Shown here: positions 2,828-7,312 of the stretch, piece after piece
How positions within the stretch are numbered: the first letter of the stretch is position 1
Layout of the letters: every line of letters begins with the position of its first letter
Source: an uncultured Kiloniellales bacterium
GTDB taxonomy: Bacteria > Pseudomonadota > Alphaproteobacteria > Kiloniellales > JAKSDN01
Length of the DNA stretch: 11,368 bases
Direction: 5' to 3'
Assembly: GCA_937974415.1 (NCBI GenBank)
Contig: CALJXB010000199.1
Span: forward strand, 1 to 11,368
Notes under the pieces: model-generated
The model's database searches: none
What the model was told of the DNA's origin: nothing
The model's input: only the letters and a program-made list of their open reading frames with translations
Translations under genes and position numbers: made by a program

Positions 2828-3214
2828 TCACCGCAGGCCCCGTGCCCAGATCCGCGTGACCCGACACTGCTCCGACAGCTCGACGACCAGGGCGCCGCCG
2901 CCGTCCTCGGGGTAGACCCAGGCCTCGAAGCCGGTGATGCGGTTGCCCTCCCGGACCGCCCGATAGAAGATCCGCCGGACCCAGTCTTCCGATACGTTCT
3001 TCTCGGCCAGAGCCTCCCGCACCGCGGCGCGGCAAACCCGGTCCTGCCCGGGCGGCAAGTGCTGGATCAAGGCATCGTCGCCGATCTGAAAACCCTCGCA
3101 GGCGCCGAGCAGCAGGAGGCCGAGGCCCATCGCGACGACCCTTCGTGCGGTGCGGGCCGCCTTTTCTCTATCCTGACTTCGGGGGCTGCCTGACATTCGG
3201 CTGCCGCCGGTCAT
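2828..3214 (-). CDS. Small putative lipoprotein, unknown function
   Basis: 128 residues from ATG 3214, chosen because it overlaps the upstream stop as ATGA and has AGGAG 5 nt before it; a second Met at 3196 has no ribosome site. The N-terminus is long and basic (to about residue 29), followed by MGLGLLLLGAC, a clear lipobox with the lipidated Cys at 39. The mature part has about 90 residues, is soluble, and contains two cysteines (about 61 and 117) that could form a disulfide, plus aromatic/charged segments (EDWVRRIFYRAV, EAWVYPEDGG). No family recognised. It is translationally coupled to the 68-residue membrane protein and lies downstream of the DUF1538/PII/CBS cassette, so a periplasmic or membrane-anchored accessory role is possible, but this is inference. 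Confidence 0.75.
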   Translation of the reverse strand: MTGGSRMSGSPRSQDREKAARTARRVVAMGLGLLLLGACEGFQIGDDALIQHLPPGQDRVCRAAVREALAEKNVSEDWVRRIFYRAVREGNRITGFEAWVYPEDGGGALVVELSEQCRVTRIWARGLR

Positions 3215-3417
3215 TTCCGCTCCTGCTGGGCCGGTCGAATCCGCTTGAGGAAGTCCCAGGTGGGCAAGGCCGCCAATCCTCCGATGAGGCCGGCGACATA
3301 ACTCGGGATCGGCACGGCGAAAAGGCCCTGACACACCAGGCCTGCCAGATAGCTGGTCAGCAACATGACACCGACGGTGATGAGCAAACGCTGCCAAAAC
3401 GGCAGGAACAGCTTCAT
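3211..3417 (-). CDS. Small two-segment membrane protein, unknown
   Basis: 68 residues. Two hydrophobic stretches, about 11-33 (LLITVGVMLLTSYLAGLVC) and about 38-53 (PSYVAGLIGGLAAL), separated by a short turn, and a basic tail (KRIRPAQQERK) that should sit in the cytoplasm with the basic N-terminus. The start is decided by an exceptionally complete Shine-Dalgarno sequence (see 3418-3428). Its TGA overlaps the ATG of the lipoprotein gene by ATGA. No family recognised. It lies 113 bp behind the CBS gene, a gap that holds a strong hairpin, so it may belong to the same operon at reduced level or have its own promoter. Confidence 0.78.
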   Translation of the reverse strand: MKLFLPFWQRLLITVGVMLLTSYLAGLVCQGLFAVPIPSYVAGLIGGLAALPTWDFLKRIRPAQQERK

Positions 3418-3428
3418 GGATCACCTCC
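3418..3428 (-). promoter_or_regulatory. Extended ribosome binding site of the 68-residue protein
   Basis: On the minus strand the sequence before ATG reads GGAGGTGATCC, eleven bases complementary to the usual bacterial 16S rRNA 3' end (GGATCACCTCC). It abuts the ATG at 3417. Most genes match only 4-6 of these bases, so strong initiation is expected. Confidence 0.75.
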
Positions 3429-3464
3429 CCGCAGTGACCAGGATGGCCCTGTCTACCGTCAACC

Positions 3465-3490
3465 CGACCGCCGGGCGCCGGCAACGGTCG
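3465..3490 (-). other. Intercistronic hairpin between the CBS gene and the small membrane protein
   Basis: CGACC-GCCGG (3465-3474) pairs with CCGGC-AAC-GGTCG (3478-3490): 10 bp, all but one G-C, with one 3-nt bulge and a 3-nt loop. There is no U-run. It could act as an RNA processing or stabilising element that sets different levels for the upstream cassette and the two small downstream genes. Confidence 0.45.
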
Positions 3491-3530
3491 AACCAGGCCC
3501 GAAAGGCTCGATTCTCGCTCCCTCAAGCGA

Positions 3531-3971
3531 TCACGGTTCCTCGCTGGCGTCCGCCTCGCCCCGGCCTGCGTCGCCGACCGGCATGTAGCGCAAGACCAGG
3601 TCGCGCAGGGTGACCATGCCGACCAGCGCATCGCGGTCGGTGACCAGCGCGCGCGAGACGCCGAAACGGGCGAGCAGCCGGATCACGTATTTGATGTCCA
3701 TGTCCTGGTACACGGTGAGCACGGGCTTGGACATGACCTCGTAGACGTTGGTACGCTCGGGGGAGCGGTCGAGGCCAATCAGCTTGGTGGCGATGTCGGC
3801 GACCACCAGCAGCCCGTATTCGTCGCTCTCGTGGCGCCGGTCGATGACCAGCGAGCTGATCTCATGCTCGCGCATGAGGTTGATCGCCTCCTGAACGCTG
3901 GCCAGGCCGTCGATCGTCTGGACCGAGGTCGTCATAACCTCGCCGGCAGAAACGTAGTTCTTGGCACTCAT
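3531..3971 (-). CDS. Tandem CBS-domain protein
   Basis: 146 residues, cytoplasmic, no other domain. CBS1 spans about 8-66 (VMTTSVQTI ... SSLVIDRR ... YGLLVVADI) and CBS2 about 77-129 (VMSKPVLTV ... VSRALVTDRDALVGMVTLRDL), forming one Bateman module. Family knowledge: such modules bind AMP, ATP, SAM or c-di-AMP and control the activity of neighbouring enzymes or channels. The acidic tail (GEADASEEP) is presumably disordered. Its ATG overlaps the TGA of the PII-like gene (ATGA at 3968-3971), with a purine-rich site just upstream, so the two should be made in fixed proportion. The gene order implies that the CBS protein helps set the activity of the DUF1538 pair; the ligand is not predictable from sequence. 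Confidence 0.9.
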   Translation of the reverse strand: MSAKNYVSAGEVMTTSVQTIDGLASVQEAINLMREHEISSLVIDRRHESDEYGLLVVADIATKLIGLDRSPERTNVYEVMSKPVLTVYQDMDIKYVIRLLARFGVSRALVTDRDALVGMVTLRDLVLRYMPVGDAGRGEADASEEP

Positions 3972-4318
3972 AGCTTCTCCTCGATCTCGCTGAAGATCGT
4001 CTTGAATTGCGATCCCAATCCCACGGCGTCCTCGATGTCGACCTGGAAGGCGATGCCGGTGCCCGGCGTATCGTCAAAGTGCCCGACCTCGGCGATCCGC
4101 TCAAGTATACTGCGGCTGAGATGGCCCTCGACCAAGAGAAGTATGGCGTCGCGCTGGCTTTCCAGGTCGAGCCCGAGGAAGGTCTTGATCGGCACCAGGC
4201 CTTCGCCCCGGGCGCTGGTGATGACCGTCGAGCCGGTCGCGCCGAGTTCGCGCGCGGTCTTGAGCACCAGCTCGGTTTCGTTGTCGTTGACCAGTGCGAC
4301 GATGAGTTTGAACTTCAT
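3968..4318 (-). CDS. Divergent PII-like signalling protein
   Basis: 116 residues, about the length of a canonical PII (112). The ferredoxin-like core is recognisable: KFKLIVALV (2-10), helix NETELVLKTARELGA, GSTVITSARGEG (29-40), ILLLVEGHLSRSILERI (59-75). Two classical elements are altered. The region of the T-loop (about 38-56) is GEGLVPIKTFLGLDLES, without the uridylylated Tyr of GlnB. The B-loop position carries DDTPGTGIAFQV (82-93) instead of the TGKIGDGKIF type, keeping a glycine-rich turn that could still bind a nucleotide. It is therefore probably not part of GlnD/nitrogen control. Its ATG directly abuts the TAG of the preceding DUF1538 gene, and GGAGGAGG lies inside that gene. This parallels GlnK-AmtB and SbtB-SbtA, where a PII-fold protein gates a co-encoded transporter. 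Confidence 0.88.
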   Translation of the reverse strand: MKFKLIVALVNDNETELVLKTARELGATGSTVITSARGEGLVPIKTFLGLDLESQRDAILLLVEGHLSRSILERIAEVGHFDDTPGTGIAFQVDIEDAVGLGSQFKTIFSEIEEKL

Positions 4319-5110
4319 CTAGCTGTCCTCCTCCGGCCGGCGGCTGCGGCGCTGGGCACGAAACTGCGTGATTTGGGCATAGGCCATGACGGTTATCATC
4401 GGAAACAGGCTGGCGAAGGCAATCAGGCCGAAGCCGTCGATGATCGGGCTGCGGCCGGGAATCGTCGACGCCAGGCCCAGTCCCAAGGCGGTGATCAGGG
4501 GCACGGTGACCGTGGACGTGGTGACCCCGCCGGAATCGTAGGCCAGCGGAATGATGGCGCGCGGCGCTACAAAGGTCTGGCCGATCACCACGATATAGCC
4601 CGCGATGATGTAATAGGGAAGCGGCGTTCCGGTGACGATCCGGAAGGTGCCAAGGGCCACGCCGATCGCGACCCCGATGGCGACCGCGATGCGCAGGCCC
4701 CAGGGGTTGAGCGACTGGCCCGAGACCTCGCTGGCCTTGAGGGCCACGGCCAAGAGCGCCGGCTCGGCTACGGTGGTGGCAAAGCCGATGGCCGCGGCGA
4801 AGACGTAGACCCAGAAATAGCGCTGCCAGAGCGAGGCCGGGTCCGCGGCGCCTTGGACGACGCCTTCCATGGCGTCCGCCGTTAGCTGCGCGGCCATGAC
4901 CTCACCAAGCGGAAACAGCGCCTTCTCCAGCCCGACCAGGAACAACGTCAGGCCGACCAGCACATAGAGGAATCCGATTGCGATGCGGCGCGGATTGGCG
5001 AGCTTTTCGCGCAGCACGAAGAGCTGGAAAAACACCAGCACCGCCAGGATCGGGAGCACGTCGAAGACCGTGTCCGCCAGAACCGCCGCCATTTCCGTCA
5101 GCCAAGCCAT
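4319..5110 (-). CDS. DUF1538 membrane protein, second of a paralogous pair (UmpB/UmpA-like)
   Basis: 263 residues, polytopic; hydrophobic segments at about 9-33, 43-66, 98-122, 138-158, 165-182, 196-216 and 224-246. Family landmarks are intact: FPLGEVM (66-72), [11 protein letters not shown] (109-119), [14 protein letters not shown] (191-204) and [14 protein letters not shown] (224-237). The polar residues in [10 protein letters not shown] and the Glu in VAEP are the likeliest ion-path residues. From memory, paired DUF1538 proteins named UmpA/UmpB were reported as a two-component Na+(Li+,K+)/H+ antiporter in Halomonas. The function here is inferred from that and not proven. The basic/acidic tail (RAQRRSRRPEEDS) is presumably cytoplasmic. 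It starts 6 bp after the first paralogue and its stop abuts the PII-like start. Confidence 0.88.
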   Translation of the reverse strand: MAWLTEMAAVLADTVFDVLPILAVLVFFQLFVLREKLANPRRIAIGFLYVLVGLTLFLVGLEKALFPLGEVMAAQLTADAMEGVVQGAADPASLWQRYFWVYVFAAAIGFATTVAEPALLAVALKASEVSGQSLNPWGLRIAVAIGVAIGVALGTFRIVTGTPLPYYIIAGYIVVIGQTFVAPRAIIPLAYDSGGVTTSTVTVPLITALGLGLASTIPGRSPIIDGFGLIAFASLFPMITVMAYAQITQFRAQRRSRRPEEDS

Positions 5111-5116
5111 GTTCCG

Positions 5117-5851
5117 TCACACCGTCATGCCGTAGACCAGGACGAAGATGATCGGCGTCAGGCTGGCAAAGGCGATCAGCCCGAAGCCGTCGATCAGCGG
5201 ATTGCGGCCGCGAATGACGCTGGCCAGGCCGACCCCGAGGGCGGCGACCAGCGGGACGGTGACGGTGGACGTGGTCACGCCGCCCGAATCGTAGGCCACG
5301 CCCACGATCTCGTCGGGCGCAAAGGGGGTCAGCGCGACCACCAGAATGTAACCGGCGATGATGAAATACTGGATCGGCCAGCCCTTGACGATCCGCACCA
5401 CGCCGAGCATCAGGGCCACGCCGACCGACACCGCCACGGTCAGGCGCAGGCCCAACGCATAACCCTCCATGGCCGGTTCCCCGGCAGCGAGGAGACCTGC
5501 CTCGGCGGCAGCTTCGGCTGCCTCGTCGGCCACGGCGATCAGCGCGGGCTCGGCCACGGTCGTGCCGAATCCCAGGGCGAAGGCAAAGGCGAGCAGCCAG
5601 CCCAGGCTGCCCTTGCGGGCGAAGGCGCCGGCCATGGCCTCGCCGAGGGGGAAGAGGCCCATCTCCAGGCCCTGCACGAACATGGCGAGGCCGAGCATGA
5701 CCAGGCCGAGGCCGGCCAGGATCTCGCCCAAGTTCTCGGGCGTCTGCTGCAGCACAACGACCTCAAAGAAGCCGACCACCAGGATGATCGGCGCCAGGTC
5801 CCGCAGAGTCGCGAGTATCAAACGGCCGAGAGAGGCGAGATTGGTGAGCAT
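5117..5851 (-). CDS. DUF1538 membrane protein, first of a paralogous pair
   Basis: 244 residues from ATG 5851. This start aligns the first hydrophobic segment with that of the paralogue ([19 protein letters not shown] beside VFDVLPILAVLVFFQLFVL). It has no good ribosome site, and an in-frame TTG ten codons upstream is an alternative. The open frame continues much further upstream, but that extension is arginine-rich and overlaps the MFS gene in another frame. Conserved blocks match the partner: LFPLGEAM (66-73), [11 protein letters not shown] (94-104), [14 protein letters not shown] (187-200), [14 protein letters not shown] (220-233). The segment between 105 and 130 differs: an Ala/Glu-rich loop ([11 protein letters not shown]) not seen in the partner. 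The two genes look like an ancient duplication kept as a heteromeric pair. The MFS gene ends 110 bp upstream, so a promoter for the cassette may lie in that gap, though none is obvious. Confidence 0.88.
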
Positions 5852-5961
5852 TTCGGCAACGGTGGTTGGTCCCTCACCCAAGGCTAACCCGCATGGGCCG
5901 CCGCGGACAACGGCGGTGTATGCGAGCCGCCGTCCCTCCAACGGGCAAACCAGTCCGGGCC

Positions 5962-7197
5962 TCACGGCGGCCGGGCCATGCCTTTCAGTCCCGCCACCAG
6001 AAAGAGACTGGCAAGCAGGCAATAGAGGGCGAAGACGAGGCAGATGGTTTCGACCGAGACGCCGCCGTCCAACAGTCCACCCATCGCCACCGGCCCCAGC
6101 GCCGAGGCGAAGACGGAAGCGGCCACCGCCAGAGAGCGGATCGCCCCCAGGTGCTTGAGGCCGTATATCTCGGCCCACAGCGCTATGATGGCGGTATAGG
6201 CGATGCCGCTGGTCAGTCCGGTGAGGAAGAGATAGGGCCAAGCCCAGATCGGATCGTCGAAAGCCCAGATCACCAGCAGCCCGGCGGCAAGCGGCAGCAG
6301 AAACCCGGGCAGCACGCGCACCGCCGTGACGCGATCGATGAGCGGGCCCGCGGCCAAGGTCGCCAGGACGGAGCCGACGGCATAGACCCAGTAGCTTCCC
6401 GTTAGCCAAGCCGCGCTCCAACCCTTGATCTCGGCCAACGTGAGATGATGAAAAAACAGCGCCGTGCCGACGAACGACGGCGCAAGAACCGCCGGCAAGA
6501 TGAGATAGAAGCGGCCGTCGCGCAGGACCTCGTGGCGGGTCCAGGACCCGCCCATATCATCGCCAGCGCCAGCGCCTGGCCTCGCCGCGGCAGACTGGGA
6601 CGGTCCCAGATACGCACCGCGCAGCAGCGCCCAGAGCACCGGAGGCAGGATCAGCACCAGGGCCAGAGCGGCGCCGCCATAGGTCGCCCGCCAACCGACC
6701 GCGGCGATGGCGAAGACGGCCAGCAGGGGCAGAATCGTCTCGCCGGCGGCGAAGCCGAGCGACACCAGGGCGACCGCCTTGCCGCGGTGGGCACCGGCGT
6801 GGCGCGCCGTGGCCGTGGTGCCGGTATGGCTCGCCAAGCCTTGGCCCGTCTGCCGCAGCAGAAAGACTGCCAGGACCAGAAGTGCCGCGGATGGAGCCAA
6901 GGCCATGGACGCGGCGGCGACCACCATGGCGGCGACTACCAGGGCGGTGTAGCGCCCCAACGGCAGACGGTCGATCAGCGCCCCGGACCAGGGCAAGAGG
7001 GCCGCGCTCAAGAGCGTGCCCGCCATATAGATACCGCCCCACTCGGCGTGGCTGAGGGCGAAGTCCCGCTGGATCGAGGGCCCGAAGGCGCCGATAAAAA
7101 AGGTCTGCCCGACGCTGGACGCGAAGGTCATGGCGAAGCCGAAGCCCAGCAAGCACGGCTGGCTGGCGGCAAGACGGAGATAGCTCTTAACCGGCAC
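5962..7197 (-). CDS. Major facilitator superfamily transporter
   Basis: 411 residues, about twelve hydrophobic segments, normal for MFS. I chose the GTG at 7197 (protein starts VPVKSYLRL), which keeps the complete first segment [19 protein letters not shown]; an AAGG lies about 12 nt upstream. The frame stays open to 7635, but the extra part overlaps the AraC gene on the other strand and is compositionally noncoding. The inner ATG at 7131 would cut the first segment. Loop 2-3 carries a motif-A variant [13 protein letters not shown] (72-84), repeated in the second half as [12 protein letters not shown] (284-295). A polar central loop (about 195-228) separates the two six-helix halves. The block [16 protein letters not shown] (341-356) resembles the monocarboxylate / oxalate-formate branch, so an organic-acid substrate is plausible but unproven. 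It is divergent from an AraC-type regulator, its probable controller. Confidence 0.88.
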
Positions 7198-7312
7198 GTC
7201 CCGGACGACCTTCGAAGTAAACCCGCAGCGACCGGGACAATGGGGCGGGCCCGCCGCGCCCACAAGGGGTCGCGTCGGCGCCGAGCGGTCCAGCGCGACA
7301 GGCCGGATAATC

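Follow-up and report, generated by a model that had tools for sequence, protein, structure and literature searches.

Genomic coupling of DUF1538 transporter genes to a divergent PII-like protein, a candidate gate for cation/proton antiport

The genes for DUF1538 membrane proteins and for a divergent subfamily of PII-like proteins were found together in nearly every genome that carried either of them, and at most loci they were direct neighbours. This genomic coupling is well supported by our surveys, in which the PII-like gene was the near-constant core partner of the transporter and a gene for a tandem-CBS protein was an optional accessory. The best explanation, to which we assign a probability of roughly 0.6, is that a DUF1538 cation/proton antiporter is gated by the T-loop of the divergent PII-like protein, with the CBS protein acting as an extra sensor.

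The window, by which we mean the whole stretch of 11,368 nucleotides that was analysed, contains the cassette as four genes on the minus strand between positions 3531 and 5851:

5117..5851, minus strand: UmpA-like DUF1538 membrane protein, 244 aa from the ATG at 5851 (Pfam DUF1538, NCBIfam UmpA)
4319..5110, minus strand: UmpB-like DUF1538 membrane protein, 263 aa (Pfam DUF1538, NCBIfam UmpB)
3968..4318, minus strand: PII-like protein of a divergent subfamily, 116 aa (Pfam P-II, 33 bits)
3968..3971, minus strand: 4-bp ATGA overlap of the PII stop and the CBS start, read from the sequence
3531..3971, minus strand: stand-alone tandem-CBS protein, 146 aa (Pfam CBS, 72.5 bits)

The PII and CBS classes to which the two smaller products belong generally act as nucleotide sensors. 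The two DUF1538 genes are separated by 6 bp (5116-5111) and the umpB-like stop codon directly abuts the PII start codon (TAG/ATG, 0 bp), so that the layout claimed by the sequence-only reading, with spacings of 6 bp, 0 bp and a 4-bp overlap on one strand, was confirmed by the coordinates and the Pfam matches. The exact start of the UmpA-like protein is a choice, since the frame stays open upstream of 5851. The -4 spacing of the PII and CBS genes recurred at most loci with both genes and was absent at five loci with a short fused transporter. A scan of positions 3100-7200 returned no promoters, and six terminator-like sites against 2.7 in shuffled sequence.

Co-occurrence was assessed in 397 genomes of the window's phylum, using as the PII query the window's own protein and not the whole PII family. 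DUF1538 was present in 111 of the 397 genomes and the window-type PII subfamily likewise in 111, with 107 genomes containing both, four DUF1538 only and four PII only. A single family, f41, accounted for 57 of the 111 DUF1538 genomes, and outside f41 both genes were found in 53 of 54; the Fisher statistic for the association takes no account of such kinship. A further broad genome sample was taken to represent the same phylum and is not counted separately. Among the four DUF1538 genomes without PII, two showed a PII fragment at the locus that was masked or cut by a contig end (one of these loci is L150), one had only fragments of DUF1538, and in the last no PII was seen before the end of the contig, 1.2 kb further on. 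One of the four PII-only genomes (locus L138) carried what is by sequence a canonical PII.

Adjacency was scored in four sets of loci; one locus occurs in two of them, and some named loci may also be present among the unnamed ones, for which reason the counts are kept apart. In the first set (90 fetched loci with 93 transporter loci, from the higher-scoring DUF1538 matches listed), PII lay directly downstream at 88 of 93 and CBS came next at 61 of 93; among the five transporter loci without a downstream PII, the second pair of locus L069 had a PII just upstream. The second set comprised 20 weaker or fused loci, with some listed and unlisted matches falling outside both of these sets; PII was directly downstream at 17/20, two PII genes were present at 14/20 and CBS at 0/20, and two of the three loci without PII end within 200 bases. 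The third set, the nearest 80 of 588 confirmed relatives, consisted of named loci with titles that include Vibrio, Photobacterium, Shewanella and Colwellia, and had PII directly downstream at 79/80 (the exception ends 723 bases on) and CBS at 78/80. The fourth set was drawn from 198 genomes of the phylum to which a Desulfobacterales record belongs; nine of them have DUF1538, with PII directly downstream in all nine (one cut by a contig end) and CBS present in four. The same neighbours were also annotated on a plasmid of Methylocystis rosea that is typed as mobilizable (L255, NZ_CP044330.1 73169-83639; 37% identity to UmpB over 60%), where two DUF1538 genes and a 'P-II family nitrogen regulator' stand in a row; no CBS gene is listed there, and the annotation places IS66 and IS4 transposase genes downstream.

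A neighbourhood survey of this kind had been proposed as a check on the sequence-only reading, with random neighbours counting against it. The neighbours proved systematic, which makes a functional coupling between DUF1538 and a PII-fold protein very likely, and the travel of PII with the exchanger across many bacteria suggests that metabolic state gates the exchanger. It can be objected that gene order alone is not function and that about half of the DUF1538 genomes come from one family, so that PII and CBS might be hitch-hikers without a functional link to the transporter; however, the near one-to-one co-occurrence persists outside f41, PII adjacency appears in two phylum samples and a plasmid copy shows it too, and we strongly disfavour this explanation, to the point of allowing it only the slightest chance. 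The earlier proposal of a dual-sensor control gains support from this coupling for its PII half; its CBS half fits only part of the family, since CBS is optional.

The cassette occurred in several forms: the window's order UmpA-UmpB-PII-CBS; UmpA-UmpB-PII; a double DUF1538 fused into one short protein (approximately 500 aa, seen at five loci), accompanied by PII and CBS; and a long fused form (approximately 570-620 aa), in most cases accompanied by two PII genes. Fused transporters were also seen under the source names Persephonella and Hydrogenimonas, and at three loci, L069 among them, different cassette forms lay within approximately 3 kb of each other. In a PII tree of 141 rows, the labels for transporter form required 13 changes compared with 53.9 in shuffles; the short-fused PII formed one group with a support of 100, and the first and second PII of the long fused form required two label changes each. 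This tree was built without multi-PII proteins, masked rows and short rows, and because its columns are few and its branches long, nothing beyond its clustering was used. Judged in this way, the PII groups follow transporter form. Three proteins directly behind DUF1538 (L244, L248 and L251), from three of the nine genomes of the fourth set, contained two or three PII-like stretches each according to our own profile, for which the Pfam P-II model found one stretch in L251, one sub-threshold stretch in L244 and none in L248. An apparent PII fusion of 589 aa at L150 was dropped, as its frame runs through masked bases.

Further copies of this PII subfamily, away from a DUF1538 gene, were seen in 15 genomes, 12 of which also have DUF1538. 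The neighbours scanned for these orphan copies include genes for ETF-QO, MutS, Dus and an SH3-domain protein, and no other transporter was found among the 10 neighbours scanned, which are a part of all neighbours. Three genomes of family f60 have a PII-CBS pair next to a phosphotransacetylase gene in place of DUF1538; the pair lies behind a malic enzyme-phosphotransacetylase gene in two of them and behind a phosphotransacetylase gene cut by the contig end in the third. A second target of PII-CBS at this neighbour is possible, and the orphan copies together with these pairs make other PII targets possible as well. Taken further, such loci would fit an arrangement in which PII and CBS are co-expressed with the transporter and act on other targets, enzymes or gene expression, with co-ordination through expression only. 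We consider this improbable, given that PII adjoins the transporter at most loci in two phylum samples, including short-fused, long-fused and multi-PII forms, and that the PII groups track transporter form.

Both membrane proteins of the window matched Pfam DUF1538 strongly (UmpA-like 224.3 bits, UmpB-like 226.3 bits, cut-off 22.6), and reached 346.8 bits against a cut-off of 490 with the NCBIfam UmpA model and 327.4 bits against a cut-off of 500 with the UmpB model, respectively. As both scores fall below the NCBIfam cut-offs, we describe the pair as UmpAB-like and not as an equivalog. Residues D17, E116, D192 and D225 were invariant among UmpB relatives in a 20-row alignment. Evidence for transport by DUF1538 comes from the one experimental study found, in which UmpAB of Halomonas zhaodongensis is described as a heterodimer and two-component Na+(Li+,K+)/H+ antiporter, with Na+, Li+ and K+/H+ antiport measured in everted vesicles (PMC5484666). 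UmpAB and the window pair are alike in having two adjacent paralogous DUF1538 membrane proteins, but the insert of that study lacks PII and CBS genes and the window locus has both. Besides a truncated ORF, the 4.2-kb umpAB insert carried three intact ones, with no PII or CBS gene among them, and antiport was nevertheless obtained with the pair in E. coli (PMC5484666), so the Halomonas UmpAB does not need PII for activity in that setting. Neither PII, P-II nor CBS is mentioned in the main text of that paper. Other papers cite the DUF1538 antiporter as a trait that may adapt cable bacteria to marine conditions or to salinity (PMC12093952, PMC10030654).

The cargo of the same PII-gated transporter could nevertheless be something other than Na+ or K+, perhaps bicarbonate, ammonium or a further ion, in which case the Na+/H+ phenotype seen in E. 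coli would be secondary. The PII-gated transporters described in the available parts of two papers carry ammonium, bicarbonate, nitrate/nitrite and urea (PMC8352866, PMC10710835), and by sequence DUF1538 had no relative among solved structures at E <= 10 in a PDB search with the UmpB profile. The UmpA-like protein also weakly matched Na_Pi_cotrans (22 bits against a cut-off of 29.1), as did one of 20 UmpB relatives (E 0.054), a match too weak for us to accept a Na/Pi-cotransporter kinship. Against another cargo stand the exchange activities measured for UmpAB and a table in a machine-learning study which lists DUF1538 in the section on key pH-adaptation genes (PMC13255231), and on balance we regard a different cargo as unlikely.

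Among the four genes the PII-like one had the weakest Pfam match (P-II, 33 bits, cut-off 25), and no NCBIfam family matched its protein at E <= 0.1. A single-sequence PDB search returned chance matches only and a profile was needed; one built from 19 relatives reached solved PII chains with up to 39.2 bits and SbtB with 21.7 bits. The only match to the P-II family in the window's own genome, which is 69% complete, was this same protein, though a canonical PII may lie in the missing part. In an alignment with the canonical relative at L138, the window T-loop is approximately five residues shorter and its tyrosines are gone, PGTGIAF replaces IGDGKVF so that there is no GDGK B-loop, and the two arginines that follow the B-loop are gone. 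The features of a canonical PII, namely the GDGK B-loop, the T-loop tyrosine and the two C-loop arginines, are thus missing from the window protein.

The subfamily shows instead a conservation of its own. The window T-loop reads KTFLGLDLESQRD, the commonest form among relatives being KTFFGL-L-QRD, and in 173 rows scoring at least 120 bits, an alignment that leaves out the divergent classes below 120 bits, the loop region was conserved at T46 (93%), F47 (97%), G49 (100%), L50 (93%) and D57 (91%). In the same rows, glycines 26, 29, 38, 40, 49, 88 and 100 were conserved at 100% and T31 at 98%. Across 19 more diverse rows the invariant residues were reduced to G26, G29, T31, G38 and G49, of which G49 is the only one in the loop, and the long-fused class has a different T-loop sequence without KTFFGL. 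In E. coli numbering, the positions that we take to form the adenine/ribose cleft (T31, G38, G40, G86 and G88) are matched here, and Arg38, Gln39, Lys90, Arg101 and Arg103, presumably the residues for the ATP phosphates and 2-oxoglutarate, are replaced in this subfamily. Classical sensing of ATP and 2-oxoglutarate by the window protein is therefore unlikely as judged from its residues, and with the phosphate residues replaced and the adenine/ribose cleft kept, a ligand with few phosphates would be expected, if it is an adenine nucleotide at all.

Cyclic di-AMP had been put forward as a candidate ligand, and we rejected it as a general one on the grounds that 54 of the 111 DUF1538 genomes contained no strong match to the DAC domain. 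Weak DAC matches (E 2e-4 to 8e-4) were present in six of those 54, one of them (G037) being flagged as above the cut-off together with the neighbours in its frame, and 48 DUF1538 genomes had no DAC match at E <= 0.001. Among the genomes without a strong match were the one that contains the window, which is 69% complete, and three of the same class that are listed as 100% complete. The 57 genomes with a strong match included 54 from f41, and a local role for c-di-AMP in that family is possible for this reason.

The CBS protein gave a Pfam match over two stretches (72.5 bits, cut-off 24), and its nearest solved chain was that of CBS-CP12 (5nmu, 84.9 bits). Among 141 rows scoring at least 80 bits, from which divergent classes below 80 bits are left out, Asp59 of the first repeat was kept in 94% and Asp124 in 65%; both residues presumably serve nucleotide binding. 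The Microcystis CBS-CP12 differs from the window protein in its gene context and in its CP12 part, of which nothing is seen in the window protein, where the matched region extends to residue 128 of 146. CBS-CP12 binds AMP according to a review (PMC9406205).

The nearest functional parallels are with transporters that are controlled by PII proteins. To our knowledge, no CBS protein belongs to the SbtA-SbtB system. The window locus resembles that system in having a transporter gene and a PII-like gene in an operon, for which T-loop docking has been put forward as a model (PMC8352866), but its transporter is DUF1538 and not SbtA, and its PII, which has no cysteine, lacks the C-terminal CGPxGC R-loop of SbtB. 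With its gene linked to a secondary transporter, the window protein would work like SbtB without being a member of that group. The AmtB-GlnK system likewise links a PII gene to a membrane target that is blocked by the T-loop (PMC10710835); the window PII differs from GlnK in its shorter T-loop without tyrosine and in its missing GDGK B-loop and following arginines. T-loop insertion thus has precedents in SbtB/SbtA (PMC8352866) and GlnK/AmtB (PMC10710835), the former being itself disputed in vivo (PMC8352866).

What we infer from the genes, their order, their co-occurrence and the PII grouping is a complex in which UmpA and UmpB would form a two-part transporter, whose most likely activity is Na+(Li+,K+)/H+ antiport as in the Halomonas UmpAB. 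The PII-like protein would dock, presumably as a trimer, on the cytoplasmic face of the transporter through its short T-loop and so open or close it, either sign of control being compatible with the model. The state of the PII-like protein would be set by a small ligand bound in the cleft where its subunits meet, and AMP, ADP or cAMP, with their few phosphates, seem more probable than ATP with 2-oxoglutarate. The CBS protein occurs in the window's branch though not in every branch; it may bind AMP or another adenine nucleotide and adjust either PII or the transporter. More tentatively, and at somewhat less than even odds, DUF1538 may represent a major class of PII-gated antiporters that are plugged or opened by the T-loop of an adenylate-reading PII, with a KTFFGL-type loop in the paired and short-fused classes, a different loop in the long-fused class, which comes with two PII proteins, and CBS as a second adenylate input in one branch. 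If so, energy charge would switch ion and pH homeostasis at the level of the protein.

According to the available portions of two papers, PII gating concerns transporters of nitrogen and inorganic carbon (PMC8352866, PMC10710835). If a PII fold also gates a cation/proton antiporter, PII control would extend from these to ion and pH balance, a role would be assigned to a PII subfamily that has no NCBIfam model, and the DUF1538 antiporter would gain a regulator. We found no paper that describes a link of DUF1538 to PII or CBS, in agreement with what the earlier reading had supposed, in a search that covered mostly literature outside subscription; the link itself may have been seen by others, as genome annotations show the PII neighbour. 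All four genes are short and lend themselves to co-expression, which makes the gating question directly testable.

Upstream of the cassette, a gene for an MFS transporter at 5962-7095 has the same orientation as umpA, from which it is separated by 110 bp; its NCBIfam MFS matches are sub-threshold. An MFS-type ORF also precedes umpA in the Halomonas insert (PMC5484666).
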